DNA from: Sipunculus nudus
Taxonomy: Eukaryota > Annelida > Sipuncula > Golfingiida > Sipunculidae
Length of the DNA: 64,000 bases
NCBI GenBank assembly: GCA_026874595.1
Contig: CM049307.1
Span: 79,832,643-79,896,642 of the forward strand
Direction: 5' to 3'
Part shown: positions 12,023 to 57,671 of the stretch, in pieces
Position numbering within the stretch: the stretch's first letter is position 1
How the letters are laid out: each line of letters begins with the position of its first letter
Translations under genes and position numbers: made by a program
Notes under the pieces: model-generated
Told to the model about the DNA's origin: nothing
Databases searched by the model: none
The model's input: the letters and a program-made list of their open reading frames with translations, nothing else

Positions 12023-12557
12023 CTATCAATAATAAAAAAATATATGGAAATGGTGAACCAGGACTTGATATTCACTGCATTACATTAGATTTCAATAAAT
12101 ATTTTCGAGGCATATATTGGTTTGACATGTTAAACGAGAGACCCATGGGTCACTGTGCTCAGCTGAAGTTGATCTTCAAGGTAAAAATATAAAATAATAT
12201 CAAATGGAGATATAGATGCACACACAGTTATTAATTTTTTTCTAAAATATATATTTTTTTAATTGCAATAAAAAACATATCTGAAAAGAACACTTGATTC
12301 ATAATTCACAATTCTAAATCACACCTTTTTTTATCCATGATTTGATTCATATATTATCAAATTATGCCTACTGATGGGTTTAATTATATTTTAATTAAAT
12401 GATTTCAGTGGAAATATAATTCTTAAAAAATGCTACATTACCACAACATGGCAAAATTGTTTTGTACTTTGGAGTGGAAACAGCTTTACAATTGTAAGAA
12501 TCAGTTCGAACAATAACAGTAATTGCAATACACTTAGTGCTGGTAAGGGGGGGGGGG

Positions 12558-13895: not shown

Positions 13896-14632
13896 CTGTG
13901 CGTGAGAGTGACTCTTCACAACGGGACTGTTACTGGCATGGACAGTATTTGTATTGTGAACTTCTAGTGTTTGTTTTGTTTGCATGCTGCTTTGTATTCA
14001 CGCATGTGATTTGTAAACAATTTGTAAATATTTGCATGGACTTGCCTGTTAAACTTTGCATGTTAAACTTACTATTTATAGCATATTTGATTAGTGCATG
14101 ATTGATTGTAATCAGCTTAACTCAACTTCTTGCTTTGTTCATGCAAGTATCGACAGAAGACTAATGCTTTTTAAGATAGGTATATGCAGTTCGCTCTTTG
14201 TTCGCAATGTATATTGATCTGAGATCCTTCGATGTAGTTTGCACAATAATTTAAGTTGTACATTTTCTTCAATGCTTAAAGTAAGAGGTTACTGCTTCAG
14301 ACATATGGTAACAACAGTTCCATTGCAAGTCGGCTAATTGATTGCTTACCTTGTGCTGACCTTATGATTATTCACTCACAGTGAGACTTGCGTGGGCACC
14401 GTATTCCTATGGTAATCCAGTCAAATGTTGAAGCATTATCTGCCAGAGGTATGTAAGTAGAAGCATGTTTATACCCGACCAAATGTGATGTGAACATTAC
14501 ATTTTGTCCATACCTCCATCGCACCCGATACCCAATTATATACTTCTGGTCAAATGAACTCATTCATTTTGAGCAGCCACTATTCATCTCCAGTTAGGAT
14601 TCTTTTTTATATATACATACCTTAGTGTCAAT
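13896..14632 (+). other. Leader region 5' of Gypsy gag
   Basis: AT-rich sequence before the gag ATG without a recognised gene. It probably includes the Gypsy 5' untranslated region. A copy of the 3' LTR is not seen in it. Confidence 0.4.
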
Positions 14633-15771
14633 ATGTCTGAAAACAAACAGTCCGATGTATCACAACTCAGAATGTCTTTAGTAGAGCAGGTAGTGGAAAC
14701 TTTAAACAAGCTTGATCCAGATACTCGTAGCGAGGTGTTTACGAGAGTACAGGGCGCCAGGCCTAAACAGGAACTTAGCTCTCCTATCCATTCAACGCCT
14801 AAAAGATACCCTCCTGATTTCCATAAAAGCCATGACCATGATCTGGGATACCTTGACAAGGCATATAGGTCACCAGAACAAACACACAGACATGACCCAC
14901 CTCTCGAGCCAATGCCATCGAGTCAGAGTTACCAGGTAGATTATGCAGGTGTCCCAATGTCCCCCGTAAAGTTGCCCTCTTTTTTTCTGGGGATGGGAAG
15001 GGAGATATCGCGTATAAGCAATGGAGATATCAAGTCAAGTGCTTGATGAAAGATGGTAAGTACCCCGAAACTACCATACTTCATATGGTTCGGCAGTCAG
15101 TCAGAGGAACAGCTGCTGATGTCATGATGTTCCTTGGTGAATCCATTACTTTAGCCACATTGTTGCTTAAATTTTACTCCATCTTTTGCAATGTCTATTC
15201 ACATAGCCAGTCAATCGAGCTCTTCCATTCCTCTAAACAAAGAGCTGGAGAGAGTATTGTCTCATGGTTTTGTCGACTCCAACAGCTTATGTGCCAAATA
15301 AAGGAGATCGAACCTCAACCTAATGAGGGTGAACTCTTAAGAACCAAGTTCTTTTACGGGCTCATAGACATTGAGGTAAAAGAAGCCATACGCCATAAAT
15401 TTGATCAGGGTGAGTCTTTTGATCAGTTATTTGTCGCTGCTAGATCAGTTGAGTCTGAGGACACGGTTGTGTCATCTGTTCCGTCTGTTTCTAAAGGAAA
15501 ATTCCTTAAGAGACCGGTTCATTTGCAGCAGAGTCCTGCTGGATCTAATGATGCATTGCAGGAGATTAACAGAGCACTTCAGTCGATAACTAAGCGACTG
15601 TCTGCATTAGAGAGTAGGGATAAAAACAAAATTCCGAGAAAGAATCAGAATGATTCAGGGTCCGCTAGCGCTGGTCAAACTCAGAAGTATTGTGAAAGAT
15701 GTGGTCGTAGAAATCACCTACGTAGTGAATGCCATGCTAAGAAGGACGTTAAAGGAAATCCTTTAAACTGA
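14633..15771 (+). pseudogene. gag: Gypsy gag (capsid and nucleocapsid), frameshifted
   Basis: The ATG at 14633 opens a frame to 15046. The rest (at least 15043-15771) is in another frame, with the break mapping to a run of seven T at 14,980-14,986. The second part has a Ty3/Gypsy capsid-like region (SVRGTA, ESIVSWFCRLQQL) and a C-terminal zinc knuckle CERCGRRNHLRSEC (CX2CX4HX4C) that would bind element RNA in virus-like particles. The gag stop (TGA 15769-15771) directly follows a canonical slippery heptamer, which links gag to the protease frame. One base in a homopolymer could be an assembly error. Confidence 0.85.
15762..15768 (+). promoter_or_regulatory. Programmed -1 ribosomal frameshift site (T TTA AAC)
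   Basis: TTTAAAC sits in the gag frame as T TTA AAC, with the gag stop TGA as the next codon. A -1 slip moves ribosomes into the frame starting at CTG 15768. That frame is open through the protease to 16334. Position, frame and direction all fit the X XXY YYZ rule. No downstream pseudoknot was modelled. Confidence 0.75.
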
Positions 15772-16334
15772 AAGAAGCCTGCACTGGGTTAAGGGGTAGT
15801 ACAGGTTTTAGTGCAGATAAAGCCCCAAACGAAGTCAAGACCACCGAACAGATACCCATTATTGGTAATCCCAATGAAATTGAAATCATTGTCAATGAGG
15901 TCAGGACAGAAGGATTATTAGATACTGGTTCACAGATCACAACAATAGCCATATGGTTTTGTAAACAATACCTTCCTGAAATACCCATTCATACTCTTCA
16001 AGAACACCTACATATTCACGTTCCTGGGGGTTACAGCCTTGATTATGAAGGTATCATTGATCTTGAAATTCAACTCCCCGGTTCTGGTAGTGATGATGTT
16101 TTTCCAACTCCTGTGCTTGTAGTACAAGACACCATTTATAATAAACAAACGCCTTTAGTGATTGGCACTAATGTCATCAGTCCGTGCTTTGTATCTTGTA
16201 AGGACGCACTTGGGAAGGATTTCTATGAAACAATGAGTGTAAACGAGTCTTGGCGTCTTGCCCACCAGTGTATGTCTACAAGTGACACCCGAATATTGTC
16301 GGATAGTTTAGGACGAGTTTACTGTTTACTGTAA
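15768..16334 (+). pseudogene. Gypsy aspartic protease region of pol
   Basis: Open in the -1 frame relative to gag from CTG 15768 to TAA 16332-16334. The catalytic motif LLDTGSQIT is present (codons near 15,910-15,940), as in retropepsins that cleave Gag-Pol in the particle. A tandem duplication of TTTACTG just before 16,332 shifts the frame and ends this segment early, so the protease is separated from the RT part. Confidence 0.8.
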
Positions 16335-16830
16335 TGAGGTTAAAATCCCCGCAAACAGCAGTTATAGTGTGCAGCGAATGACACATACAAATCTTAAGTC
16401 CAACACCCTTGTGATCACAGAGGTAAACGAAAACTCCTCCTCATCTGCAGGCATTGTGGTGATACCGACTCTTCAAAAAGTAATGAATAAACAAGGACCT
16501 CTCACGAAAGTTTATGTACAAGTCCATAATTTGTCAAATCATTCTGTGACACTCCCAGCCAGGTCAATCTGGCAAATTTGCGATTTACATGAGGCTGTTC
16601 CTGTACATTCTATGTCTACAACTGTTTCTGTAGAACGTGAAGAGACTTTTCCTAAAAACTTCACATTTGGGCCTGATTTAAGCCCCGAGGAAAAGTTGCA
16701 AATCGAACAATTACTTCTAAAATGGTCACATTTGTTTTCAACAAGTGACACAGACATCGGTAGAACCGATGAGATTGAGCATAGGATTAACCTAAGTGAT
16801 CCTACCCCATTCAAAGAGCGTCACAGGAGG
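16335..16830 (+). pseudogene. Gypsy pol: protease-RT linker and start of RT, cut by insertion
   Basis: A different frame from the protease, read through 16,369 up to the codons for HRR at 16,822-16,830, where the DIRS element begins. It ends with the block HRINLSDPTPFKERHRR that in Gypsy elements immediately precedes the RT N-terminal IPP motif. That IPP continues at 22,440 on the far side of the insertion. Confidence 0.8.
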
Positions 16831-17005
16831 TTTTATTACGTAAACATAATTGTGAGCTGTTTCTGTATTAATGAGAATTTTCTCTGTTAAAGTTTATACG
16901 CCAGAGTAAGCCAACCGAAAATTTTCCCTTATTGGGCCTATTATCGCCCATCCCGCCTCGTTTCCGTGTATCTAGGTCACACTTCCGTTACCCATAATCA
17001 CATTT
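16831..17005 (+). repeat. DIRS left inverted terminal repeat
   Basis: Runs from TTTTATTACGTAAAC to CCCATAATCACATT. The inner about 140 bp is almost identical to the reverse complement of 22,241-22,380. The outermost about 45 bp is copied in reverse complement in the internal complementary region. Confidence 0.9.
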
Positions 17006-17125
17006 TCTTCTGGCGTACGCCATGATGGACGTTTGATCCCGCGCTGCGAGATTCGTCCACTTTTGGGTTTGTCGTTTTGAGTTTGCCAACTGATTGTAAG
17101 TTTTTCTTATTTTCCCTTGCCCGCC

Positions 17126-19084
17126 ATGGAGAACCCCGCTTATTGTGTCTCTTGTGGCACTATAATCCCGGTATGGGACTCCCACCCCACTTGTTATAGT
17201 TGCCGCACCAACAATGCCTCCTGCCGCGGTCCGGCTGATCCTTGTTTCCATTGCCAGACGTGGTCCACTGACAAGTGGGCCTTGTTCCAGGATTGGGTTC
17301 ATTCCCCGGTTATTGGGGGTTCCCCCTCCGTTATTCCCTTGTCTGGCCCCGTGGTTGTCTCCGGGGGGGGGGGGGGGGGAGCCTACCCTGGTTGACCGCA
17401 CCACGGCCGTGCTGCGTTCACCGTCCGTTCCCGCCAACCTGTCACCTCTCCCGTGGTTTCGTCAGTTAAATCATTGCTTTCTCATTCACGGAAACGGAAA
17501 TCTTCCCCAGTTCCCGCGGCCTCCCGTTCTGACAGCACATCTGCATATTCCATATTACATAAATTGTCCCGGTTTTGTTCATCCCTGATGTCGGATCTAG
17601 ACGATTCGTCTAGACCCGCATCCGTCCGCCCGGCGCCCTCACCGGCGCCCCCGGTCCTTTCTCCCCAGCCGTTCTCGTCGCCCCCGGCTCCTCGCCGTCT
17701 TCCATCATTGTCGCTGGGGCCGGCTGGAGCCGTCCCGCTGGATCGCCCGATCCTTCCTGGGGTGCAGGTAAGTGCGTCGGTCCCTCCTGCCTCCGTTTCA
17801 GGGCGGCTGGTTCCTCCGTCTCCCGCCGCTACTTCCCGGCCGACCGGCTCTTTATTTCGGACGCCGTCTGCTGTGCGGCCTGCGGATCCGGTTCCGGTGC
17901 CTTCCAGGATGGGTCCTGCTGCTGCTCGTTCCCCGGCTTCCTGTTTCCAGCCTCCGGTAGTTCCAGCTCAGATGGTCTCTCTGGCTCCCCCTACCCGGGG
18001 TTCTCCAGGGTCCTCGTCTTCTCAGTCAGCCGATCCCGCCCTGGCGCCTGACCAGTGGTCGGAGATCGCGCTGCAACGCCAGGCTTGGTGTATGCGCAAA
18101 TCTGCGCTTCTGGACCTAGTGGCTACCTCCACACAGGAGGCTAACCCTTCTGGTCTGAAGTTCCGTCGGTTACAACCTCGGACTTCCTTGGCGTCGGCGG
18201 CAGGTTCCTTTTTGAATCCTGCCGCCCTTCAATCGCCCTCGGCCGCGCCCGCCGTGTGTATGGAGTTTTCCGAACACACGGGGGATATCTTACGTGAGCA
18301 CCAAGCGGTGGTCTCGGGGTCTCGCTCTGCTACTACTGGGGCCCTGCTTCCGCCGGGTTCGGAGAAACCTTGGTCCCCCGGTACCCTCTGGAATTCCCGT
18401 GGATACCGGGCTACCTGTTTCGATCGCTTACTGCCCTATCCTGATCACCCGGATATTCCGTCTGCTCCGATGCGTCTCGAGTCCGGCCTTGAACAGCCGT
18501 TTGCGGATGGCAAGTCTTTATTTCCATCCTCTGTCCAACTTTCCGATCGTCACTTGTCGGATCTGGAGGGGCTCGGCCGGCAAGCGGCCGGCATGGTTAA
18601 CGACTTGCAGGCTGTCACTAGCTTGCTCGCCGTTTCTCCAGACACGCTAACTCTCAACGACATATGGCAGGCTTCTGCCCATACTTGCGCTGAGTTGAAT
18701 CAGGTCGTTTGGCGCCTGGTTGAAAATTGCATCTTGTTACGCCGCACGGCTTGCATTCAGTCGTTAAAGCACTTCAAGCTGAAGCTTACTCAGGCGGAGT
18801 TAACTGAACTTTTTTCTCAGCCTTTTACCGGTTCCCTGCTGTTTGGCGGCCACTTACGGCCTCTCTTTGACCGCGCCTTGGAGCGCTCCGATGGTCAGGC
18901 CCGCCTCCGCTCGACCTCTCCTGTGCCTCGGCCATCCTTCCGCGTTCCCCGCCCTCGGCCTCCAGTTGCGGCTTCCGCTCCACCGCGGCGCGCATCTGCT
19001 CCGTCTTCACGTCCTTCCGGACGTTCCGGCCGTTCTCAGCCTTTTCGTGGTCGATCCTCCAAACGAGGTTCGACCAAGGAATGA
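17126..19084 (+). pseudogene. DIRS ORF1 (gag-like), interrupted after a poly-G run
   Basis: The ATG at 17126 has a strong context (GCCCGCCATGG) and lies just inside the left terminal repeat. The N-terminus is Cys/His-rich (CVSCG, HPTCYSC, CFHC), as in DIRS ORF1 proteins. A TGA at 17393-17395 follows a poly-G run at 17,364-17,380. The frame then resumes and runs open (from before 17,453) to 19084, about 543 residues that are Pro/Ser-rich in the first half and Arg/Pro/Ser-rich at the end. It likely makes the RNA-packaging protein. The poly-G run is a plausible site of indel or assembly error. The RT frame is already open from 18,843, so ORF1 and pol overlap. Confidence 0.75.
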
Positions 19085-19935
19085 CTCTGTCGCTCCGGTC
19101 GGCGCTCGTCTCAGCGCCCATTTTCCTGCATGGGCGGGTATCACCTCACAGCGTTTAATTCTCAGCACCGTCAAGTTCGGGTTCCATCTTACATTTTTGC
19201 ACGCACCTCCCGTCACCTTGCACCCGTTCTTCACTCCGCCTCCGTCCGATCCGGCAAAACGCCTCGCTTTGGAGGAGGCCATTCAATCGATGTTAGACAA
19301 ACGGGCAATTATCGAGGTTTCCCCTTCCACCGTGGGGTTTTACTCTCGCCTTTTTCTTGTTCCCAAACCGCACGGCCGTTGGCGCCCGATCATAGACCTG
19401 AAGCGCCTCAATTCGTTCATCCGCCCGCCCCCGTTTCGGATGTTCAATATCCATGCTGTGCTCCGCATTGTTCGGCGGATGGATTGGGCGTTCATGATAG
19501 ACCTTACGGATGCCTTTTTTCACGTTCCAATCCATCCCTCGTCTCAACCGTTTCTTTGCTTCGCGTATCAGAACCGCGTTTTTCAATTCCGGGCCCTTCC
19601 GTTCAGGATCAACGTGGCCCCCTGGATTTTTACCATGTTGGTTCACACGGTCACGAGTTATCTCCGTTTACAGGGCATTTCTGTGCTCCCTTATCTGGAC
19701 GATTGGCTGGTCCATGCGGCTGATCGCTCCCTCTTACTGTCTCATCGCTCCCGGGTTCTCACCTTACTTCGGAACCTCGGCTTCCTGGTCCATGCGGAGA
19801 AATCTCTTCTCACTCCCACCCAGTCCCTCCAATTTCTGGGTGTCACGCTCGATTTTGCGTCCGGCACAGCGTCGCTCCCGCGCGATTTTGCTCTCAAGCT
19901 CCGCCGCCTAATTCATTCCTTTCTCACGCGGCGCT
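18843..19935 (+). pseudogene. DIRS reverse transcriptase region
   Basis: The frame is open from 18,843 and homology begins near 19,100. The protein has PKPHGRWRPIIDLKRLN, the catalytic MIDLTDAFFHVPI (first Asp) and PYLDDWLVH (YLDD near 19,695), then LQFLGVTLDF. These are the palm motifs of DIRS-class RT. There is no good ATG at the start of homology, so expression by overlap or frameshift from ORF1 is likely. After about 19,935 the homologous reading moves to another frame, and the 3' part of this open frame is a shadow. Confidence 0.85.
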
Positions 19936-21054
19936 CTCAACTGGGCCGCGTCTTTCATCCCGTTCGGCCGACTGTACCTCCGTCCGATTCCGTCTATCTT
20001 GCGCCGTCACGGCCTTCTCCAGTTAACCTCGGTTCGTCCTCCGATGCTCCTGTTTCGGAGCACCTGGCGGTCCCTTCGTCCCTGGTTGGACCTTTCCTTT
20101 CTCCTGCGCGGCGTTCCTTTTTCCAGGGATGTCAATTGCACCATCTATACCGATGCGTCTCTCCTCGGTTGGGGGGCCCATCTCACCAATCTTCGCGCTT
20201 CCGGGATATGGTCCCCGTCGGAACGTCTGCTCCATATCAATATCCTCGAACTGCGTGCCGTCCGTCGCGCGATCTCCCACTGGTCTCCCCCCTTGATCAG
20301 ACGTCACATTCTCATCCCGACCGACAATACCACGGTTGTGGCATATATCAACAAGCAGGGTGGTACTCGGTCTCCCTCGCTCATGCAGGAGACTTACCTT
20401 TTGTTCGATCTATGCCTCTCTCTCCGGGCATCAGTTCGTGCATCCCATCTTCCGGGCGTGTGGAACATCCTAGTGGACGCCCTTTCCCGTCATCCGGCGT
20501 CTCTTCCTTCCCCGCCGCTCCTTCCGCTCCCAGTTATTCGGAGTGTTTTCGCTCGCCTGGGGCGGCCGGAATTCGATCTGTTCGATTTTCCGTCCCCCCC
20601 CGTTCTCGTGCCTTCCGCGACGCGTCTACGTCACCCTCGCGACCGTCTCCCCGACACGCCGCCGTCAGGGTGGTCTCACCGGTTTCTCTTTGCGTTTCCA
20701 GCGCCTCCTCTCATCTGCCGTGTCCTTCTCCGCTTGTCCCGCGCGGACCAGACTACCCTGCTTCTCATCCTCCCGTTTCAACCTGCGGCTCCATGGTTTC
20801 CTCTGTGGCACTCGCTTCTCTCTCGCCCCCCGCTTATACTACCGCTCCGCATCGCGCTCCCGTCGTTCCCTCGAGCGCGTTGCCCGTTTCGTTTGTGCCC
20901 TCTATGCACATGCGTGCTCTCATTGGACACCTCAAGGATCAGGGCATTTCAAGTCCTGCTGCTCTCCTTGCCTCGGCTACCCATCGCCGTTCTTCGGACC
21001 GCATCTATGACTCTTCACGGAGTGGGCGTCTTCCCGCGGAATCTCCCCTTTAGA
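19921..21054 (+). pseudogene. DIRS RNase H and connecting domain
   Basis: Continues RT homology in a second frame (GRLYLRPIPSILRRHG), then RNase H with YTDASLLGWGAHL, NILELRAVRRA, PTDNTTVVAYI and NILVDALSRH, so all four acidic positions are kept. The segment with FDLFDFPSP, FAFPAPP and WFPLWHSLL is the connector seen before the recombinase in DIRS-like pol. The frame drifts again near 20,850-20,920, before the recombinase. Confidence 0.8.
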
Positions 21055-22029
21055 TCCGTCGCTTGCGGCTGTTTTGGATTTCTTCGTGTTCTTACTGCAG
21101 GATAAACATTTATCCTATCCCTCTCTGCGTGGCTATCGCGCCGCCCTGCTGTCGGTGCTCCGTCCGCTGGGTCACGATCGTGTCCTTCATCACCCGTTGG
21201 TGTCGGACTTTCTCAAGGGGGTTCATGCCCGTGCGTCTCGTCCTCGGTAAGCTGCGCCTTCCTGGCGCCTGGACGTCGTCTTACGTCACCTCCGGGAACC
21301 CCCTTATGAGCCGTTGCGTTCGGCCCATCTTCTCCATTTGTCTCAGAAAACGGTTTTCCTCCTAGCTCTTGCCTCGGCAGGTCGCCGTTCTGAGCTTCAT
21401 GCCCTCGTGGCTGATTCGAAATTCACGCAAATTGCGGCCGACGGTTCGTCGGCCACCCTACATTTTCCTCCGGACTTTTATCGGAAAAATCAAAATTTCG
21501 ATGATCCTCCGTCTGCTTGGCACGTTCCGGCCCTCCCTAATGGTCAGTACCGTTATGGGGCTACCCATTGCCCGGTTCGTGCGTTGCGTTATTATCTCAA
21601 AGCTACTCATTCTTTACGGGGGGGCGCAAGAAGTTGTTTATTTCTACAAAAGTCACATCTTCCAATAAAGAGATTAGCCCTATCACCATTAGTGCGTGGC
21701 TCAAAGCTACTATAGTCGCCGCATATGAATCAGCTTCTCAATCCACATTAGACCAATTTCACATCAAGGCCCATGACATTCGGGCTATTTCGACTTCCTT
21801 AGCCCATTTCTCCGGGATCTCACCCAATCAGTTGGTCAAGAAGGGATACTGGAAATCCCCATATACGTTCACACGCTTCTATCTGAAAGCTGTTCAGCTC
21901 CAGGCTTCGGGCCTCTACTTCATGGGCCCTGTGATTGCGTCGGGTGAGGTCCTACAATTTTCCAGGCCTTCTTCTTCCTCTCCGTCGGTCCCACCACCGA
22001 CGTCGACTGCTGCTCCATCACCGCACTGA
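21055..22029 (+). pseudogene. DIRS tyrosine recombinase, broken
   Basis: The N-terminal core-binding part reads from 21,055 (SLRGYRAALLSVLRPLG) and has an in-frame TAA near 21,249. The catalytic domain follows with SAGRRSELHAL (Arg I, about 21,380). After a frame change near 21,665 come KAHDIRAIS (His-x-x-Arg II, about 21,765) and GYWKSPYTFTRFYLK with the nucleophile Tyr. The full R-H-R-Y set is thus present but spread over two frames plus a stop. The enzyme would integrate the circular cDNA. Confidence 0.85.
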
Positions 22030-22088
22030 GATTCCTCGTTCCAGCGTTACAGGTAGGTGCCCCCTCCCCAAGGCATGTCTGTTTTTTT

Positions 22089-22199
22089 CTCATTAATACA
22101 GAAACAGCTCACAATTATGTTTACGTAATAAAACCCCCCCATTCCCTCCCTGTGAATGGTGGTTTTGTTAGTAAACTGTTGTGAGCTTTTCTGTATTAC
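22089..22199 (+). repeat. DIRS internal complementary region
   Basis: The first about 45 bp is the reverse complement of the left terminus (16,831-16,876), and the next about 65 bp is the reverse complement of the right terminus (22,366-22,439), joined at a poly-C run at 22,133-22,140. It serves as template to complete the ends during circularisation. Confidence 0.9.
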
Positions 22200-22240
22200 A
22201 AACATCGCTCCCTCCCAGTCCTCTTCCTTACGCCTTCGAC

Positions 22241-22439
22241 AATGTGATTATGGGTAACGGAAGTGTGACCTAGATACACGGGAACGAGGCGGGATGGGCG
22301 ATAATAGGCCCAATAAGGGAAAATTTTCGGTTGGCTTACTCTGGCGTAAAAACTTTAACAGAGAAAATTCTCATTAATACAGAAAAGCTCACAACAGTTT
22401 ACTAACAAAACCACCATTCACAGGGAGGGAATGGGGGGG
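22241..22439 (-). repeat. DIRS right inverted terminal repeat
   Basis: Starts AATGTGATTATGGGTAACGG and ends GGAGGGAATGGGGGGG against the Gypsy ATTCCTCC. It is about 25 bp longer than the left repeat because of an extra outer segment, the usual asymmetry of DIRS ends. Confidence 0.9.
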
Positions 22440-24795
22440 ATTCCTCCACACCTGTATGATGAAGTCCGCAATCACATTCAGGATATGTTGCATGCCAATG
22501 TAATTCGTGAGAGTCAGTCCCCTTTTGCATCAAACGTTGTATTAGTTAGAAAAAAGAACGGAAAGTTGCGCTTCTGTGTGGACTATAGAAAACTAAACAG
22601 TCGCACTATCAAAGATTCCCATCCACTTCCTCGCATAGACGAGACTTTAGACTCACTTGCCGGGACTAAGTATTTCAGTTCCTTGGATCTAAAGGCAGGT
22701 TATTGGCAAATTGAAATTTCCGAATCCGACAAACAGAAAAACCGCCTTCACCGTAGGACCGCTCGGGTTCTACGAGTTTAACACCATGGCGTTTGGTCTT
22801 TCTAACGCACCCGCGACATTCCAAAGAGTAATGCAGGCGACTCTCGGTGATCTCCACCTCAGTCAGTGTCTTTTTTACTTAGATGACATTATCGTCTACA
22901 GTAAGACATTTGAGAGTCATCTTGAAAATCTAGATAGGGTGTTTGAGCGGCTGTCTCAGGCTAATCTCAAGCTAAATCCTTGTAAATGCACTTTCCTACA
23001 AAAAGAGGTCAAATACCTTGGACACATGGTGTCTAAAGAAGGTATAAAACCAGACCCAGACAAAACCTGTGCTTTGATAAATTGGCCGGTTCCAACATCA
23101 GTCCAGGAAGTCCGTAGATTCCTCGGTTTCGCTGGGTTTTATAGGAAATTCGTGAAAGACTTCAGTAGGATAGCAAAGCCCCTACACAATCTAACCCGTG
23201 GCGAAAACCGAAAGGTCAAAGGAAAAACCGTAGATACTTCACCAACACGACCTAAACATACTAACTGCGGTCTGAAAACTACCACTGTAAACAACAAGTG
23301 GTCTGACGAACACCAGCTGGCATTCAAAAAGCTTCAAGAACTACTTTGTTCACCCCCTGTTCTAGCTTATGCCGATTTTTCTAGGCCTTTCACTCTACAC
23401 ACTGATGCTTCAAGAGCAGGGCTTGGTGTGGTTTTGTTCCAGGAATTTGAGGGACGTGAGCATCCCATCGCTTTTGCCAGTCGGTCACTCACCTCATCTG
23501 AACTTAACTACCCTGCACATAAACTAGAATTCCTTTGTTTAAAATGGGCAGTGTGTACAAAATTCAAAGATTATCTGTATGGTACCAAATTTGTCGTTAG
23601 GACTGACAACAACCCTTTGACCAACGTTCTAAGTAGTGCTAAACTTGACGCTACTGGTCAGAGATGGGTTGCCGAATTAGCAGGATATGACTTTTCCATA
23701 TTGTACCGTTCAGGGAAGGAAAACATCGATGCTGACTTCTTGTCTAGGCTACCTCAGGCGCACGTCGCATCCATGTGTCTTATTCCAACTGATAACACAC
23801 CAAACCGATCGGAGTCAAATACTGATACGTCCTCAGACGTAGTGTCTGCTATCCTAAATAGTCATGTTGTGAATGACACCTGTTTTGCTCTGTCTCACCT
23901 TGCTAAAGAAGCAAATGTGAATGTTCCAACCATAGGATCTGCTTTATTTCACATGACCAAAGAAAAATGGTCAAAAGAGCAAAAAGCTGACCCCGTCATT
24001 AGTATTGTTTTGCAACATCTTAAACACAACTCAAAGCTGTCGATGTCTACTAGGCAAAACCAAGGTGTAAGAGTGCTCCTTCGGGACCACAAGACGTTAG
24101 TCCTGAAAGATGATGTCCTCTATAGAAAGAGAAATATCAATGGAGATGTATGTTACCAATTAGTCCTTCCTTCAAAGTTTCGCGATGACGTGCTCAAATG
24201 TGTCCATAATGAAATGGGTCATATGGGACAAGAGAGAACCCTTCAGTTCCTCCAAGAGAGATGCTATTGGCCTTGTATGGCTACGGAGGTAAATAAGTAT
24301 ATCTCTCAATGCCCTCGTTGCTTATGCAAAAAAACCCCAACCAATCAGAGAGCCCCACTAACCAATATTGATTCTAGTCAGCCAAAGGAGATCCTCTGTG
24401 TTAATTTCCTCACACTAGAAACCAGTAAGGGCGGACTAGAAAACGTGTTAGTCATGACCGGTCATTTCACCCGTTATTCCCAAGCCATTCCAACAAGAAA
24501 CCAGACAGCTAAGGTCACAGCCAAAGCACTGTTTGACACCTATGTATGTCATTACGGTATGCCACAAAGGTTACACAGCGACCAAGGTCGTAATTTTGAG
24601 TCATGTGTGATCCAGGAACTGTGCACGCTCACTGGTACCACAAAATCTCATACAACGCCATATCACCCACAGGGCAAAGGGCAATGTGAGCGTTTCCCGA
24701 AAAGAAGGCCGATTGGAAGTCTCACATTGGCCCAATTGTCCATGCATATAATTGCAGCAAGCATGAAACAACTGGCTTCTCGCCATTTTACCTGA
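22440..24795 (+). pseudogene. pol: Gypsy pol: RT, RNase H and integrase core
   Basis: Begins with IPPHLYDEVRNHI, the continuation of the interrupted RT. RT has [11 protein letters not shown] and the YLDDIIVYS active site, with a frame change near 22,735. RNase H has [28 protein letters not shown] and NIDADFLSR. Integrase has an HHCC zinc motif (HNEMGH ... CPRC). In its core, the position of the first catalytic Asp reads Asn (CVNFLTLE, codon 24,403-24,405), while SDQGRNF and the Glu of CERF are kept. A frameshift follows CERF near 24,695. With these defects the copy is predicted to be non-autonomous. Confidence 0.88.
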
Positions 24796-25870
24796 TGTTT
24801 GGTCGCCACCCACGTTTGGCCATTGATATCCTTCTTGGGTTAACTGAAAACAGCCCACAAAATGACTACTCCACTTATGTGCAGTCATTAAAGCAGAAAC
24901 TTGAAGATGCATACCGTATTGCCCAATAAGAGAGTCTCAAGCCCATGGTAGGAAACACTATGATCGGAAGATCAAGGGCCATTCTCTTGATAAGGGAGAC
25001 AGAGTTTTAGTTCGTAACACCTATATACAGGGCAAACAGAAATTAGCTGACAGATGGGAAGATACCGTCTTTATTGTGGTAAACACACCATATAAAAACA
25101 TTCCAGTTTACGAGGTAAAACCTGAAAACCGTTCAGGGCAGGCCCGTACGTTACACAGGAATCTTCTGCTTCCCATTAATACTATACCCTTAACGGATCA
25201 ATTACCATCTAACAGTCAAACACCCAAACCCGCCAAACGTCGGGGTTCCCCTAAATCGTCTGATATGCAGACCATGAGCCATGCTTTTTGCTCAGATGAA
25301 TCTGATTATACAGATACTGAATGCGCCGTTGTTCCATTCTTAAGAAAACGGAATACTTCTAAGGCAGCACAGAGTAGGTCCTCCGGTCATTTAGAGGAGG
25401 ATGTTCCAACAGCTGAAACCAATGAGCCGTTTTCAGATCATTCCTCTGAACATTCTATAAGAAGTATTCAGAATGAGCCAGATCATACTGATAACCCGAC
25501 AACTAACGTTAATCGGAGTCTCAGTGAAACAAGTATAAATGGATCCCATAGATCAGCTCTCGTAACAAGAGCTGATGGCCAAACTCGAGAAAGCAGTGAT
25601 CATTCCTTTACCAATTTATCTAAGACATCAGCTGACTCAGTGGATATGAGTAATCAGAATTTTACACGACAGGACACTGACATAGCTGATGCAGATAGCG
25701 ATGCACCAGATGCAAATTCTCATGTCTCTATAGAGTCTAATGTCAAGAGTCGTCCGTCCAGACAAAGAAAACGTCGTGGTTGGATGAGATCGAATGAGTA
25801 CATTGTAGATTATCTACCTACACTATCTTCACAATTATCTCAAATATACTACGATATCGGACAGTTTTAA
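24793..25870 (+). pseudogene. Gypsy integrase C-terminus and pol tail
   Basis: Carries [14 protein letters not shown] and GDRVLVRNTYIQGKQKLADR, the usual end of Gypsy integrase with its GPY/F-like module, then VYEVKPE and RTLHRNLLLP. A frame break with TAA lies near 24,928. From 25,076 the frame is open to TAA 25868-25870. Its last about 200 residues are Ser/Asp/Asn-rich with a basic RPSRQRKRRGW patch and match no domain I know. Confidence 0.75.
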
Positions 25871-32628: not shown

Positions 32629-34136
32629 AAAAGTAATTTTATCATCTGAATGTCAAATTTGAATGAAATACTTTTTCCAAACTTGATCTTTTGTATAAAA
32701 TCATCCAATATTCATTGGGGTACTATGGAGCTCTGTAGCATGAAGGATATGGGTAACAGACACCTATTTTCAAGGTTTACAAGATGACTTTTCAGGGGTC
32801 TCCCAGCATGTCAAAAAATAAAATTCTAGGTCCAGTTATTATGATTTGTGCCCTGTTAACAAATCCAAATGTTTATTCTGGGGGGTATTTCAAAGCCGCA
32901 TAGGATGAAGGATATGGGTAACAGAGATGTAATTTCAGGTGCACAAGGAGACTTTTCAGGGGCCTCCCAGCATATCAAGAAAGGAGATTCTAGGTCAAGT
33001 CATTATAATTTGTGCTCTGTTAACAGATGACCAAATCTTTATTCTGGGGAGTACTTCAGAGCCCCAGAGCATGAAGGATATGGGTAACAGGGACCTTATT
33101 TCGGGTTTCCATGTAGACCTTTTATGAGCTTCCCTGGAGGTGAGGACAGAAGATTCTAGGTCCAGTCATTATGATTTGTGCCCTGTTAATATATGACCAA
33201 ATCTTTATTCTGGGGGGTACTTCAGAGCCCCATAGCTCACAGAATATGGGTAACAGGGACCTTATTTCGGGTTTCCATGTAGACCTTTTATGGGCTTCCC
33301 TAGAGGTGAGGACAGAAGATTCTAGGTCCAGTCATTATGATTTGTGCCCTGTTTACAGATGACCAAATGTTTAAAGATCACAAAAGTAGAGAAAAAAAAT
33401 CGTAAAAAATAAAAAAAATATAGGTGGCGCCACCAATCTCCAGAAATTGATGAAACACTCCATGATCAATATCCATGCAAAGAATCATGGTGATTAATGC
33501 ATTAGTTGTTCAGATACTTGAGCTTTTGTATTAAATTTTGCATTATTCTGGGGGTTACTTCAGAACCCCATAGCTCGAAGAATATAGGTCACAGTGACCT
33601 AATTTCAGGTTTACAAGGAGAATTTTCATAGACCTCCCAGGATTTCAAGTAAGAAGATTAATAAGTAAAAGTAATTTTATCATCTGAATGTCAAATTTGA
33701 ATGAAATACTTTTTCCAAACTTGACCTTTTGTATAAAATCATCCAATATTCATTGGGGTACTATGGAGCTCTGTAGCATGAAGGATATGGGTAACAGACA
33801 CCTATTTTCAAGGTTTACAAGATGACTTTTCAGGGGTCTCCCAGCATGTCAAAAAATAAAATTCTAGGTCCAGTTATTATGATTTGTGCCCTGTTAACAA
33901 ATCCAAATGTTTATTCTGGGGGGTATTTCAAAGCCGCATAGGATGAAGGATATGGGTAACAGAGATGTAATTTCAGGTGCACAAGGAGACTTTTCAGGGG
34001 CCTCCCAGCATATCAAGAAAGGAGATTCTAGGTCAAGTCATTATAATTTGTGCTCTGTTAACAGATGACCAAATCTTTATTCTGGGGAGTACTTCGGAGC
34101 CCCAGAGCATGAAGGATATGGGTAACAGGGACCTTA
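32629..34136 (+). repeat. 470-bp near-identical direct duplication
   Basis: 32,629-33,098 and 33,667-34,136 match at a constant offset of 1,038 with only a couple of differences seen (TTGATC/TTGACC, CTTCAGA/CTTCGGA). Within each copy a shorter motif ATGAAGGATATGGGTAACAG recurs. Confidence 0.85.
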
Positions 34137-36660
34137 AGTAAGAAGATTCGAGGTCTAGCGGTTACGATTTGTGCCCTGTTAACAGACAGACGCCTGGATG
34201 GCCGGACGGACGACGGACATAAGGTGATCCCTACAGCTCAGATGACTTTCAGTCAGCTGAGCTAAAAATTGAAAAAATACAGGTGGCGCCACCAGAATGC
34301 AGAAACTGATGAAACATTTCATGATCAATATCCATGCAAAGAATCATGGTGATCAATATAATAATTGTTCAGATACTTGAGCTTTTGTATCAAATTTTCC
34401 ATTATTCTGGGGGGTACTTCGGAGCCCCATAGCTCAGAGGTTATGGGTAACAGAGACCTAATTTCAAGTTTTTAAGGAAACTTTTCATGGGCCTCTCAGC
34501 ATGTCAAGAGAATAGATTCTAGGTCCAGTTGTTACGATTTGTGCCATGTTAACAGATGACCGCATCTTATGAGGTCTCAAAAATAGAGAAAAAAAATCGT
34601 AAAAATAAAAAAAATACAGGTGGCGCCACCATACTGCAGAAACTGATGACACATTCCATGATCAATATCCATGCAAAGAATCATGGTGATCACTGCAATA
34701 GTTGTTTAGATACTTGAGCTTTTGTATAAAATTGTCCATTATTCTGAGGGATACTTCAGATGACTTACAGTCAGCTGAGCTAAAAACACTTAATGGTTAA
34801 TGGTCAATATCCATGCAAAGAATCATGAAGATCTCCGTATTAGTTGTTCAGATACTTCAGCTTTTGTATCAAATTGTCCATTATTCTGAGGGATACTTCA
34901 GAGTCCTATAGCTTGAAGGATATGGGTAACAGAGACCTAATTTCAAGTTTCCACAGGCACTCTTCATGGGCCTCCTTGCATGACAAGAATGAAGTTTCTA
35001 GGTCCAGTTGTTGCAATTTGTACCCTCTTGATAGATAACATAGGTGGCGCCACCAGTCTGCAGGAACTGATGGAACATCTCATAATCAATATGTATGCCA
35101 AAAATCATGACCATCAGTGATGTAGTTATTGAGATATTGAAGTTTTTGTATGAAATTTTTGACTACTCTTGGGGGGGGGGGGGGGGTACTTTGGGGCCCC
35201 ATAGCTCCAAGGATATGGGTAACAGAGACCTAATTTCTGGTTTCCATGGAGACTTTTCATAGGTCTTCTAGTGTGATGAGAATGTAGATTCTAGGTCCAG
35301 TCGTTACTATTTGTGCCATGCTAACAGATGACAGCATCCTTAAAGGTCTCAAAAATAGAGGAAAAAATCGTAAAAAATCGAACGATACAGGTGGCGCCAC
35401 CAGCCTGCAGGAACAGATGACACATCTCATGATCAATAGTTATGCCACAAATCATGACCATCATTCAAGTAGTTAATGAGATATTGAAGTTTTTGTATGA
35501 AATTTTTTACTTTTCTTGGGGGTACTTTAGGGCTCCATAGCTCGAAGAATATGGGTAACAGAAACCTAATTTTGGTTTCCATGGAGACTTTTCATAGGTC
35601 TCTCAGTGTTATCTAGAATGAAGATTTTAGGTCCAGTCGTTATGATTTGTGCCACGTTAACAGATGACAGCATCCTTAAAGGTCTCAAAAATAGAGGAAA
35701 AAATCGTAAAAAATCAAACAATACAGGTGGCGCCACAAGTCTGCAGGAACTGATGGAACATTTCATAATCAATATGTATGCCAAAAATCATGACCATCAG
35801 TGATGTAGTTATTGAGATATTGAAGTTTTTGTATGAAACTTTGGACTACTCGTGGGGGGGGGGGGGGTACTTTGGGGCCCCATAGCTCGAAGGAAATGGT
35901 TAACAGAGACCTAATTTCTGGTTTCCAAGGATATTTTTCATGGACCTCTCAGTGTGTCAAGAATGAAGATTCTAGGTCCAGTCGTTACGATTTTTGCCAT
36001 GCTAACAGATGACAGCATCTTTAAAGGTCTCAAAAATAGAGGAAAAAATCGTAAAAAATCGAACGATACAGGTGGCGCCACCAGTCTGCAGTAAGTGATG
36101 GAACATATCATGATCAATATGTATGACAAAAATCATGACCATCAGTCAAGTATTTAATGAGATATTGAAGTTTTTGTTTGAAATTTTTTACTTTTCTGGG
36201 GGGTAGTTTGGGGCCCCATAGCTGGAAGGATATGGGTAACAGAGACCTAATTTCTGGTTTCCATGGAGACTTTTCATAGGTCTCTCAGTGTGTCGAGAAT
36301 GAAGATTCTAAATCCAGTCATTACGATTTGTGCCTTGTTAACAGATGTTCACATTTTTAAAGGTCTCAAAAATAGAGAAAAAAATTCGTAAAAAGTGGAA
36401 AAATACAGGTGGCGCCACCAGTCTTCAGGAACTGATGGAACCTCTCATGATCAATATGTATGCCAAAAATCATGACCATCAGTCAAGTAATTAATGAGAT
36501 ACTGAAGTTTTTGTATGAAATTTTGGACTTTTCTGGGGGGTACTTTGGGGCCCCATAGCTCGAAGGATATGGGTAACAGAGACCTAATTTCTGGTTTCCA
36601 AGGAGATTTTTCATGGACCTCCCATGATGTCACGTAAGAAGATTCCAGTTCTAGCGGTTA
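33370..36660 (+). repeat. Tandem array of about 340-bp units with GGTGGCGCCACC
   Basis: GGTGGCGCCAC(C) occurs near 33,424, 34,283, 34,620, 35,043, 35,391, 35,727, 36,070 and 36,410. The last five spacings after the first are about 337, then 423, 348, 336, 343 and 340. Units share ATGATCAATATGTATGCCA, a poly-G near GGGGTACTTTGGGGCCCC, ATATGGGTAACAGAGACC, TAGGTCCAGTCGTTACGA and AAAAATAGAGGAAAAAATCG. Units at 35.0-36.5 kb are the most alike. Short open frames here are by-products. Confidence 0.9.
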
Positions 36661-36662
36661 CG

Positions 36663-36780
36663 ATTTGTGCCTGGTTAACGGACAGACAGACGGACAGACA
36701 GACGGACGGACAGACAGACAGACAGACGGACAAAGAGTGATCGCTATAGCTCAGATGACTTTCAGTCAGCTGAGCTAAAA
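36663..36780 (+). repeat. (GACA)n/(GACG)n tract and terminal hairpin of the array
   Basis: A GGACAGACAGACGGACAG-type microsatellite (36,678-36,730) is followed by GATCGCTATAGCTCAG, the 12-bp hairpin stem and AAAAA, matching the end at 30,300. It marks the right boundary of the 340-bp array. Confidence 0.75.
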
Positions 36781-37089
36781 ATGATACGAGCTGGTTCGAC
36801 AATTACTTTAAGTTCCTAACAAGAAGAATTTAACGGAGGTGCCAACAGCATTCTAAAGTCGGTAATTCTATTGATTCACTGAAGTAACTGAAGAACAAGT
36901 CGGGCTAATCATCCGTCGCTCATCCTGCAGACCATGTATACTCAATTCTATTCCGACCTGGATGATTAAAGAACTTAGCTCAGCTTTAATCCACTTTCAT
37001 TACGTATTATAATTAAATTATTGGTAAAAGGAAATGTACAAAACCCCATGAAAATTGCACCCCACTTTTCAATATATATAGTTACGAAG

Positions 37090-47688: not shown

Positions 47689-48113
47689 TGTGGAAGAAGT
47701 CAATTTGGCGTGTCTGAATCTTTTTTTTTATTTCATGGCATTAGCGCAGTTTGAATTTTCGTGCAAATGAGTATGTATAGGTAATTTATTTTGCATCAAA
47801 TTATGAACATTTTTGAACGTTTATACAGTTGACAACTAAAACGTTCCTGGTGACAGTGTAGATGCTACGGACGAATGAGTATACCATGACCGCAAGGTGT
47901 AAACAATACGTAATTAAACAACAGTATATCACGTTTGATGATGCAATGGGACCTGAAGCCACGTTATTTGACATCTGAGTAAGTTGCAGAATTTCTCAAC
48001 AATAACAACTGTGTTCATTAACTAGAAGTTGTATGAAATAACGTGTGTTCTTAATTTAGCGCAAATCTATAGCTCCCGTGAAAAGCGCGAACGAAAAAGT
48101 GTGTAAGTTTATG

Positions 48114-48118
<5 letters not shown>
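45792..48118. other. Intergenic, microsatellite-rich to the right
   Basis: No gene recognised. From about 47,210 to 47,690 there is cryptic simple sequence of TA, TATG and GTATATACATG types, with (TA)n at 47,397-47,420, 47,483-47,506, 47,560-47,592 and 47,640-47,688. Confidence 0.6.

Positions 48119-48162
<44 letters not shown>
48119..48162. repeat. (TA)n microsatellite
   Basis: About 42 bp of TA repeat bordering the inverted-repeat element on its left. Confidence 0.95.
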
Positions 48163-48165
<3 letters not shown>

Positions 48166-48251
48166 GGTAGTGTTACCCTCCGATGTAAAGTGCTCTATGG
48201 CCTACAAGCTAGGCCAGAGCGGTATAACTCTGAAGAAAAACAACACTGTTA

Positions 48252-48299
48252 ATTCACAACAGACTGTTTCACGGGATGCGACCCGATCATCAGGTGAAT
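48252..48299 (-). ncRNA. Hammerhead-ribozyme-like motif (left arm)
   Basis: Exact reverse complement of the motif at 49,274-49,321, with the same core and stems, and read leftward. Confidence 0.5.
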
Positions 48300-48849
48300 G
48301 TGGTTAGAATGAAGCTAACGTCGTGGTTTGAAAAGCCGAGACTTTACGAGATTACGAGATTATGCTTTGTGCGATTCGGGTGGGGGGGGGGGGGGCATGT
48401 GAAAGACTGACACTGATCCTATTGTACTCGGGTGCACAATAGGATTGGTCGGGGTACACGTGCGATACTGGAACATAACAGGGCAGGGCAAAGAGGTTAT
48501 ATAGTGTAGTAAATAGTAAATATAATACAAAGATATAGCCAGGATGCTCAATCAGCATATTGAAATGATTTCTAATAGGGCCTTGGAAGCAGTGAAAATA
48601 TCAGTAGTATACATATGATATGATAAAAATACACATATACTGTGAAAATACACAATATACAAGGCAAATATACAATATAAAAGGCAAATATACTATACCC
48701 ATACCAAGTGGTGCAAGTCTCCTAGCTGAAGGTCGGTAAAGCCCATTAGACCAGGATAAAGTAGAACTTTCCTGTCATCCAATGGACTCCACGAGCCAGC
48801 AGTGAGAGAACAACTACCTGAACAAATGAGTCTGCCCAGCGGATCCTCG

Positions 48850-48883
<34 letters not shown>

Positions 48884-49273
48884 AGGGGGGGGGGTTAAGG
48901 GGGAGCACGCTGAATATTGTACGAATGCTAGGTTTTAAAATATTTCAGGGTGAATTTGTTTTGATGGCGGCACTTGGAGAGAATTTCAGCTCTTGAGTTC
49001 AACAATGATCCAGGGGGGGCCGTCGTAGCTATAAGTAGCTTTTCAGACAAGCAGAGATCACACTTCCTACCTATATAACCTCTTTGCCCTGCCCTGTTAT
49101 GTTCCAGTATCGCACGTGTACCCCGACCAATCCTATTGTGCACCCGAGTACAATAGGATCAGTGTCAGTCTTTCACATGCCCCCCCCCCCCACCCGAATC
49201 GCACAAAGCATAATCTCGTAATCTCGTAAAGTCTCGGCTTTTCAAACCACGACGTTAGCTTCATTCTAACCAC

Positions 49274-49321
49274 ATTCACCTGATGATCGGGTCGCATCCC
49301 GTGAAACAGTCTGTTGTGAAT
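49274..49321 (+). ncRNA. Hammerhead-ribozyme-like motif (right arm)
   Basis: Stem I pairs ATTCAC (49,274-49,279) with GTGAAT (49,316-49,321). The core CTGATGA follows at 49,280-49,286. Stem II is CGGG/CCCG (49,288-49,291 with 49,298-49,301) with a six-base loop. GAAA is at 49,303-49,306. Stem III is ACA/TGT with a three-base loop, and the predicted cleavage is after U at 49,315 (GUU). One weak point is a U-U opposition at the base of stem II. Confidence 0.55.
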
Positions 49322-49399
49322 TAACAGTGTTGTTTTTCTTCAGAGTTATATATATATATATATATATATATATGTCGTATAGAGTTTAGATAACTATAG

Positions 49400-49545
49400 A
49401 AAGTATACATTCTATGGTCCAAACCATAGAATGTATACATTCCATGGTCAAACCTACACATTCTATGTATTTTCTATAGAATGTATACATTTTATCATGG
49501 AATGTGTACATTCCGTGGGCAGGGTCATGGAATATGTACAATTCC
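49400..49545. repeat. Cluster of GAATGTATACATTC-type palindromes
   Basis: AGTATACATTCTATGG, CCATAGAATGTATACATTCC, GAATGTATACATTTTATC, ATGGAATGTGTACATTCCG and GGAATATGTAC recur within 150 bp, forming overlapping short palindromes. There is no coding sequence. Function unknown. Confidence 0.6.
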
Positions 49546-51088
49546 ACTCAGTTTACCTAGCTGGTGTCAGTACTCTTGTAGGGTGAGTGAAAAATATTAA
49601 AGCATACTTGTTTAATAAAACACGTTTTTATTCACATAATATATTTACATTTTATATATTCTTGTTGGGTGAGTGAAAATTATTAAAGCAGACTTGAATT
49701 GTTTAATACAGTGTAGAAATAAACCCGAATTCAATATATTTTGGTTGAGAAAAAACGCACGCGTCAGTCGGCAAACGCAGGGGAATTCCGCTTAAATGTC
49801 ATGTGTGGGGTTTCTCCTTATTCGTATCTTTTAGTCCGTTCATATGTGACAGGAAGGCATGTTTTTGCCTCGCGGCAAACGCTCACATGGAAAAGGACTG
49901 GCCGCGCGGCAAACGCTTGCAAAACGCGTACATGGACAAGCAGTAACACGTCGCTTTAAATCCCGATACGACGACAGTGCATGCATGCTGCCAGCTCTCA
50001 ACGTGTCAAGGCCGAGACTACGCTCCCGTGGCAGCGGAATCTTGCGCTTCTAAAGAAGCAACCGATTTTCACGCTGCCAGCTTTGACCGTTTATGATATA
50101 TTTAGACACCAGATGGCGGTTCGTTTTCCACTGAAATGAATGTGCGTATGATGTGACAAGCAGCCAATCAGATGCCAATAAACAAACACTCGACAGGCAT
50201 CCTGGCTCCGCCCATTGCTGCGCTTCAAGCGCCGCTTATTGCGTTTCCGGTCGAATTTAAATTGCTCTCTCTGCATTCTCGCATCATCGACCGATTCGAT
50301 TTTGACATTATGACTGTGTTAGCGTAGCCATGTATCTGTTGTCTGCAGAACTGAAACCAGCAAGCGAGGTGTGCACGCAGCCATTGTTGTTACGTTTCGT
50401 TTGAATTAAAGCTCACCGGCCGAGCTTCCTATGTGCCCAAGGCCCTAAGCAAACCACGTCAGGCTCTCTGAGCCTGTGGCCTGTTCAGACGGTTACGCTG
50501 GGGGATGAGCTGTCACTCAAAAAGAAATTAATATGATTGGCTCTGTGTATTCCTCGCTTGGCTTTGTCTTCCAGCACAAGGTCTCATCTGATTGGACAAA
50601 AATACAGTGCTCCCCTCTGGTGTTGCAATTCAGGATACGAGGTCATAACAAACAGCGCCTTACGATATAGGTAGTAGCCCTATAGGTAAAGCGCTGTGTA
50701 AAGAGCGTAGGCCGAGACGGGGAATATGAGGAGCAGAGTTGAAGACTTAAAGGTGCTTTTCCATAAGTGCGAAGCTGTACCGGCTATATTTTAAGTGAAA
50801 GTAAATATCTATGTATGATATATATAATGAAATGTGAAAAATATATTTTATTCAAAGATTCAAAGATCAGTCTCCCAAATTTTCGGTGGGAGGGATAACC
50901 TTGTATAAGCCATCTCACTGTGTGGAGTGCGCATGTCTGAGCGCAAGGCATCATGGGCTGTGTCAGAGGTCAATGCCACATGCCTGGGTCGTCAATGTCA
51001 ACAAACAGCTTTCAAACCGGCGCCGGCTTGAACATATAGGTCGTTCAGTTGTAATACTAATACTAGTAATAGTGACAGAACTCATGTC
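49546..51088. other. Upstream region of the THAP-like gene
   Basis: Two short repeats of GGGTGAGTGAAAA(A/T)TATTAAAGCA lie near 49,580 and 49,667. The stretch 49,740-50,060 is CpG-rich. It may be the antisense of a degenerate zinc-finger repeat, but too weakly to call. 50,280-50,760 is comparatively GC-rich and could include a promoter. No gene was supported. Confidence 0.35.
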
Positions 51089-56722: not shown

Positions 56723-56751
56723 CACATTTATATGGGGAGGGGGGGGGGGGG

Positions 56752-57579
56752 GTACCGTTATTGTTATAAAAACCATTGTCATTAACCAGCTCCAAACCTG
56801 TTGCCGATAACTTGATCATTGAAGGTATCACATAATAACTGGATTTCATGTTAGATTGAATGACGGGAACAGTCAAGACAAAAACCATTTCAATCCTTGA
56901 TTTAGCAGCAGTAAAAACGGAAATACGGATAGAGAATGAATATTAGTTACAAGAAACACGCGATTCACAGAGGGGCCCAATGACCCATTTATAACATCCT
57001 AAAAAGAGCATGAAAATAATCCTCAATCAGACAATCGGTATAGACTACGAGTAAATCCTCACTAATACTACAAAAAAAGAGACCCAGTGATCATGAAACT
57101 TATAATCATTATCTTGAAGCATAGACAGTAACAATATACTGCCAAGTATAAAAACAACAATTAGTAATGTACCATCAATGTTTTATTATCCAACCCCCCC
57201 CCCCCCCCCCCCCCTCCGCCCCGACAAAAAAAAATCACATGACATAGAATGGTCACAGAAATAAATCATTGAAATATTTCCGCCTTTGATTTCATCAGGG
57301 CGTTTGCAATATATCACAATGGTAACCTAGTTAAATTACATTGATACTAATGAATTAACACTATATTTGCTCAAACTGACCAGCAGGGTCCAAGTCGTCG
57401 ATGACAACGAACACGCCTCAAAATATACACGAGAACTTTTGTAGGCCTGCCAATGTAATTTTTAAATATAACAGCCTGCTTTGAAAAAAAGTGACATTTC
57501 CATTTTAGGATCAGATTTTTAGGACCGTTTGATTTTATTGCATCCCTTAAAACACGGAAACCAGTAGGGTGCTAAAAAG

Positions 57580-57671
<92 letters not shown>

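Follow-up and report, generated by a model that had tools for sequence, protein, structure and literature searches.

A near-perfect inverted repeat in an animal-type genome with an outward-pointing hammerhead-like motif in each arm

Introduction

Do two hammerhead-like motifs that sit in opposite arms of an inverted repeat, each pointing away from the center, represent real ribozymes, and what kind of element would carry them in this arrangement? The question is raised by a locus in a 64-kb stretch of DNA that comes from an animal-type genome (the whole of this stretch is referred to here as the window, and all positions are counted from its first base). The hammerhead-bearing mobile elements described in those portions of the literature that were available to us are copied through RNA and carry tandem ribozymes. 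Placed in both arms of a palindrome, a ribozyme would, if real, imply a different use, such as the trimming of transcripts at the borders of the element, and it would offer a simple non-coding setting in which the role of genomic hammerheads could be tested. Should the motif instead be a product of chance, the element is an ordinary non-autonomous repeat.

Results

A near-perfect inverted repeat spans positions 48223-49350 of the window (Table 1). Two pairs of blocks, one of 171 nt (48223-48393/49180-49350) and one of 121 nt (48384-48504/49071-49191), show 100% complementarity, and the gapped alignment of the arms contains two differences in total: the poly-G tract differs in length by 2 nt, and a gap of 1 nt lies close to the inner end. 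Together, the blocks and the alignment bear out the 1.1-kb inverted repeat of the original prediction and its two inverted arms, although the length of the arms has to be corrected from 280 bp to about 285 bp. We entertained the idea that the repeat is a foldback artefact of assembly; this appears unlikely because 557 bp of other sequence separates the arms. When treated as RNA, the whole arms fold somewhat better than shuffled sequences (z -1.9). No tandem repeat over the element was reported at a score of at least 100, and the window contains no tandem copy of the element elsewhere.

Within the 64-kb window there is no second copy of the spacer that lies between the arms. The poly-G tracts of this spacer had been thought distinctive, an idea that we rejected because 15 of the 19 poly-G/C tracts of at least 10 nt in the window lie outside the element; poly-G is ordinary in this DNA. 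In contrast, the description of the element as lacking a protein held, since none was found in or near it: no open frame of at least 120 aa in the ORF list of the window overlaps the element, and the longest stop-free stretch in positions 47700-49900 is 83 codons.

Table 1 Features of the element and of its flanks (positions in the window)
Feature	Start	End	Strand	Basis
(TA)n microsatellite flanking the presumed insertion on the left	48119	48162		(TA)n tract list, sequence
60-bp segment that separates the left arm from the (TA)n and may form the 3' end of the element	48163	48222	-	Fold, (TA)n proximity
Left arm of inverted repeat	48223	48509		Repeat blocks and gapped alignment
Type I hammerhead-like motif, cut predicted between 48258 and 48257	48252	48299	-	Mirror of plus motif, descriptor, R1; no Rfam match
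10-bp perfect palindrome with 10-nt loop, inside left arm (mirror, 49130-49159)	48416	48445		Repeat listing
Spacer with 31-nt and 10-nt poly-G tracts, without long open frame	48510	49066		Repeat search, ORF list, tract count
Right arm of inverted repeat	49067	49350		Repeat blocks and gapped alignment
Type I hammerhead-like motif, cut predicted after U 49315	49274	49321	+	Descriptor, R1; no Rfam match
(TA)n microsatellite flanking the presumed insertion on the right, overlapping the last arm bases	49347	49373		(TA)n tract list

Both the descriptor and the covariance model R1 (described below) place one motif in each arm, with both motifs pointing outward and each strand holding one motif in sense. 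In the motif on the plus strand, stem I (49274-49279/49316-49321; 6 bp) encloses the core sequence CTGATGA (49280-49286), a stem II of 4 bp (49288-49291/49298-49301) with an unpaired U.U at its base (49287/49302), the sequence GAA (49303-49305), and a stem III of 3 bp (49306-49308/49312-49314) that is closed by a triloop. The CUGANGA and GAA core of a type I hammerhead is therefore present, as are stems I, II and III with stem I open. In the hammerhead numbering, the motif carries A15.1-U16.1 and H17; the base at the cut site is U, where C is usual. The descriptor, which covered types I and III, found exactly these two motifs in the window, in agreement with the outward-facing motifs, complete with core and three stems, that had originally been predicted in both arms, and it returned the same predicted cut on the plus strand, after 49315. 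The core and stems thus stand as first described, with the base of stem II corrected to an unpaired U.U. Similarly, when the 28-nt core was searched for at up to three mismatches, only these two copies were found in the window (expected, 0.00). Exact matches to the core numbered 0 in viral_contigs and 0 in genome_contigs, and exact matches to the ribozyme tail, the left-end hairpin and the left-end tail numbered 0 each in viral_contigs; these are viral and prokaryotic collections, and their silence weighs little for an animal element. A looser pattern that contained part of stem I of the motif matched 11 viral loci.

We compared the motif with what arises in randomized sequence. Among 1500 second-order Markov windows, 17 contained some type I or type III motif of the class and none contained a type I motif whose stems were at least as long and whose span was no greater, in a comparison whose thresholds were chosen after the motif was known and whose scan covered types I and III, with type II left out. 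The motif was drawn from a scan that may have taken in many windows, which counts against it. An unusual richness of the arms in hairpins is not supported as the cause of a chance motif, as the arm contains 9 hairpins of at least 4 bp against a shuffle mean of 7.1, and 283 of 1000 shuffles reach as many.

To score the motif we used a covariance model. A strict hammerhead pattern matched at least 120 loci on viral contigs, and the 130 pattern matches among the viral loci listed comprised 95 of type I, 27 of type III and 8 that were unassigned. Model R1 was made from 36 distinct phage type I motifs of seven chosen architectures, a selection that favored a basal G-C pair in stem II. In the window, R1 matched the two mirror sites at 21.1 bits with an E-value of 2.8e-4, the next best site reaching 11.4 bits (E 0.6), where the E-values are rough by the model's own statement. 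For validation, 39 of the listed viral loci were used, none of which had been part of the training set; R1 matched the pattern site in 33 of 33 type I loci, at 18.2-61.5 bits; among the type III loci it did so in 5 of 6, at 17.9-22.8 bits. The score in the window is below those of 31 of the 33 held-out type I sites and above those of the other two (L027 and L043). Off-pattern matches of R1 in the held-out loci that scored at least 25.7 bits were taken, unchecked, as further hammerheads; the remaining ones were a single match at 17.6 bits, truncated by the end of its contig, and four at 11.8-13.8 bits. (Several metagenomic viral contigs, L043, L107, L088, L018, L014, L025 and L050, showed more than one type I match per stretch and may hold arrays.)

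The motifs, although they fit R1, do not fit the hammerhead models of Rfam: no Rfam hammerhead was found in the window at the gathering score, and none was found up to an E-value of 10 in either the 1401 bases or the 86 bases around the motif. Because none of 14 control loci (12 of type I, 1 of type III and 1 left unassigned by the sorter) was reported at gathering either, we initially held that Rfam is blind to such motifs. This view was withdrawn after 6 of 6 controls (L042, L062, L044, L031, L002 and L027) were recognised in E-value mode, at 22.6-36.8 bits. One of them, L031, resembles the motif in the window in its 3-bp stem III and in the U at its cut site; it scores 36.8 bits, which is above the gathering score (it also belongs to the training set of R1). 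The other five, which are phage hammerheads, score 22.6-30.5 bits, fall below the gathering score of Rfam and are missed by a default scan. Since all six controls were recognised in E-value mode, the silence of Rfam counts against the motif, and we lowered our estimate of the probability of a real ribozyme and raised that of chance. The original prediction had named a covariance score below threshold as an outcome that would speak against it; we obtained such an outcome with Rfam but not with the phage-based R1 (21.1 bits).

Next to these model scores stand the predicted folds. For a 69-nt stretch containing the motif, the predicted fold does not stand out from those of shuffled versions, 101 of 200 of which fold as well (z 0.15). 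The ensemble probability of the hammerhead fold is 0.0017 for the bare core, which is below that of all 95 phage controls (median 0.39, lowest 0.0019). With 10-nt flanks it is 0.0008, compared with a median of 0.36 for 94 controls, 3 of which are lower, and on a 71-nt stretch it is 0.0003. A monomeric hammerhead fold is thus disfavored under the standard energy model, which leaves out the non-canonical pairs and contacts of the core. Together with its loop, stem III forms the palindrome ACAG-U-CUGU, so that a pair of transcripts can build a common stem III of eight pairs with one U.U and swap their stem I strands. The computed energy of the dimeric hammerhead is -26.3 kcal/mol, versus -7.5 kcal/mol for one monomer hammerhead and -12.4 kcal/mol for the free monomer ensemble; the best cofold, at -29.5 kcal/mol, is a differently shaped dimer and not the dimeric hammerhead. 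Because stem III is palindromic, a dimeric hammerhead would fit the motif better than a monomeric one. Dimeric hammerheads are known from newts. Moreover, cleavage as a dimer is reported for type I hammerheads with a weak helix III in the available part of a review (PMC7761336), and one family of axolotl retrozymes, as described in the part of its report available to us, has a U.U at the base of stem II (PMC7229834).

The 60-bp segment outside the left arm, which contains a hairpin at 48192-48220, has an energy of -11.1 kcal/mol when folded as DNA (z -3.18), a value that none of 200 shuffles equals. This strong hairpin (GCTCTATGGCCTACAAGCTAGGCCAGAGC) adjoins the outer side of the left arm and looks like the terminal hairpin of an element of the rolling-circle type. 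Read along the minus strand, the order of the parts is arm, spacer, arm, hairpin, 29 nt and (TA)n. A (TA)n tract lies within 70 nt to the left of 1.5% of window positions outside the element, a limit that was chosen afterwards, and the local chance is higher because (TA)n tracts cluster at 47.4-47.7 kb. On the simplest reading, the unit is probably a single insertion of about 1.19 kb, at 48163-49348, into one (TA)n. Given the hairpin segment at 48163-48222 and the (TA)n to its left, the left boundary first proposed, 48223, was probably drawn too narrowly. A possible alternative is that the element ends with its arms and that a duplicated TA or TATA is hidden in the (TA)n.

The remainder of the window is animal-like DNA with a GC content of 30-57% by 2-kb step, 19 (TA)n tracts of at least 16 nt and no tRNA genes according to ARAGORN. 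Domains of reverse transcriptase, RNase H and integrase are found in its ORFs (10 scanned of 40 listed). ORFs of an LTR-type retrotransposon, with gag zinc finger, reverse transcriptase, RNase H and integrase, occupy 14573-25870 and are apparently interrupted by a GC-rich stretch at about 16.8-22.4 kb that contains another reverse transcriptase and is flanked by an inverted pair of 94% identity (16826-17007/22238-22415). An open frame of 991 codons at 4025-7000 has a PIF1-like helicase domain and a C-terminal part that, by eye, is PHD-finger-like. On the minus strand, an open frame at 10108-12084, which we take to be P-element-like, has a TNP-like RNase H domain and a match to an RFX DNA-binding domain just under the cut-off. 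Tandem repeats of about 165 bp and 336 bp, which are diverged copies of each other, lie at 32736-36782. A segment of about 860 bp at 56723-57583 has (TA)n on both sides and poly-G and poly-C tracts inside; the inverted repeats listed there (among the 25 longest of 225) are the (TA)n itself.

Discussion

The layout of the locus is confirmed, and the question of whether the motif is a real ribozyme is about evenly balanced when a Penelope-like origin is counted as a ribozyme too. Our best explanation, to which we give slightly less than an even chance, is that the element is a non-autonomous mobile element in which each inverted arm carries a minimal, weak type I hammerhead that points outward. 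The near-identical arms, the complete core, the three compatible stems, the R1 E-value of 2.8e-4 and the absence of an equal from 1500 randomized windows all count for a ribozyme. The poor fold of the monomer, the silence of Rfam, the U at the cut and the fact that the best cofold is not a hammerhead count against it.

If each arm does carry a hammerhead, a transcript that exits the element in either direction would contain one ribozyme in sense, and the cut would fall about 35 nt short of the end of the arm. The RNA inside the element would then end in a 2',3'-cyclic phosphate, and the downstream RNA would begin with a 5'-OH. With a stem III that is short but palindromic, any cleavage would most likely call for two such transcripts joined in a dimeric hammerhead. 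A transcript across the whole element could behave differently, as its antisense arm could form a long duplex that hides the ribozyme; the first arm would be a perfect complement of the second in such a long transcript, which counts against a ribozyme. Unit-length circular RNAs, which had originally been suggested, are not supported. They would require two cuts on the same strand and only one site per strand is present, whereas the ribozymes of retrozymes and Penelope-like elements (PLEs) are tandem in the accounts available to us.

Of the other explanations, chance or a fossil sequence takes a substantial minority share of the probability. Here a long-TIR, foldback or similar non-autonomous element would contain short palindromes, possibly transposase sites, that happen to spell a hammerhead, and no RNA would be cleaved. 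Palindromes of the form AACA/TGTT do recur near the arm ends, the monomer fold is unfavorable, about 1% of random windows (17 of 1500) hold some motif of the class when many windows may have been scanned, and Rfam is silent up to an E-value of 10 while recognising 6 of 6 controls. Chance is harder to reconcile with the E-value of R1 (2.8e-4), with the lack of an equally good type I motif in any of the 1500 Markov windows, and with the ordinary hairpin content of the arms (equalled in 283 of 1000 shuffles). We consider it unlikely that a DNA transposon family, of the Helentron type or with long TIRs, took up a hammerhead into its long arms and that its transcripts are cut, as a dimer, just inside the end; if true, this would be the hammerhead of an element that is mobile as DNA rather than as RNA.

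An origin from a PLE, with arms that are pieces of pseudo-LTRs present as inverted partial copies and a motif that is a minimal PLE hammerhead, seems to us quite improbable. The available parts of two sources (PMC7761336, PMC11167929) describe minimal type I hammerheads in the pseudo-LTRs of PLEs, as well as a PLE reverse transcriptase that homes to AT-rich DNA, and inverted pairs of Penelope are described in introns of D. virilis in the accessible part of another (PMC1431729). The PLE ribozymes of the former two accounts are, however, arranged in tandem, whereas those at this locus are inverted. Moreover, all open frames of at least 120 aa lie clear of the element, and the two ORFs with an RVT_1 domain, one of which also has an integrase, are at least 23 kb away. 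GIY-YIG, the nuclease that accompanies the reverse transcriptase in PLEs, was not found in the 10 ORFs scanned of the 40 listed, although the element could be a non-autonomous copy. The idea of a retrozyme-type unit that makes a small circular RNA is very improbable and is contradicted at this locus: metazoan retrozymes are indeed small, low in GC and equipped with type I hammerheads, but those described in the available part of their report are repeated in tandem and yield RNAs of about 170-400 nt (PMC7229834), and the window contains neither a tandem copy of the element nor two ribozymes in the same direction flanking a unit, there being one sense motif per strand.

How, then, does the element compare with known systems? 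Like long-TIR MITEs and foldback elements, it is non-coding and has long, near-perfect TIRs with TATA at both arm ends; unlike in those, the left (TA)n and the hairpin are left unexplained, and a TA or TATA duplication would be indistinguishable from the (TA)n. We know of no hammerheads in the TIRs of long-TIR MITEs or foldback elements. Likewise, the titles and abstract beginnings that were searched contain no report of a hammerhead in the TIRs of a DNA transposon, which does not prove absence.

Minimal type I hammerheads number in the thousands in animal genomes, according to the available parts of two sources (PMC7229834, PMC7761336). Those of PLEs and Terminons, as described in the accessible part of PMC7761336, resemble the present motif in their small type I shape, weak stem III and link to mobile elements. 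They differ in their position, either within pseudo-LTRs arranged in tandem or at the 3' end of an element at a telomere, and in being accompanied by a reverse transcriptase, whereas this element has one motif per inverted arm and no protein was found. The metazoan non-LTR retrozymes, in the part of PMC7229834 available to us, share with the element a non-coding sequence, a low GC content and a type I hammerhead, as well as the U.U of the axolotl family, but their tandem monomers give circles of about 170-400 nt, whereas this element is inverted, 1.1-1.2 kb long and has a single sense motif per strand.

In the order of its parts, the element resembles HINE/DINE-1 elements (non-autonomous Helentrons), which in the available part of their description (PMC4067079) are non-coding and have a repeat at the 5' end that recurs in inverted form about 60 bp ahead of the 3' end, followed by a hairpin. 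In the HINE of a mite, according to the same part, one repeat is found close to the 5' end and its inverted counterpart sits 38-60 bp ahead of the 3' end, from which a palindrome is 8-35 bp away (PMC4067079). The asymmetric subterminal inverted repeats and the hairpin near the 3' end are found here as well (arm, 60 bp, hairpin at 48192-48220), with a far longer repeat: about 285 bp, compared with 12-15 bp. In addition, HINE/DINE-1 elements prefer TT targets, whereas the junctions here are (TA)n, with no TT or T-rich sequence at the insertion, and the available part of the description mentions no hammerhead (PMC4067079). Because of the mismatch in repeat length and TT target we do not file the element as a HINE, though the order of its parts fits.
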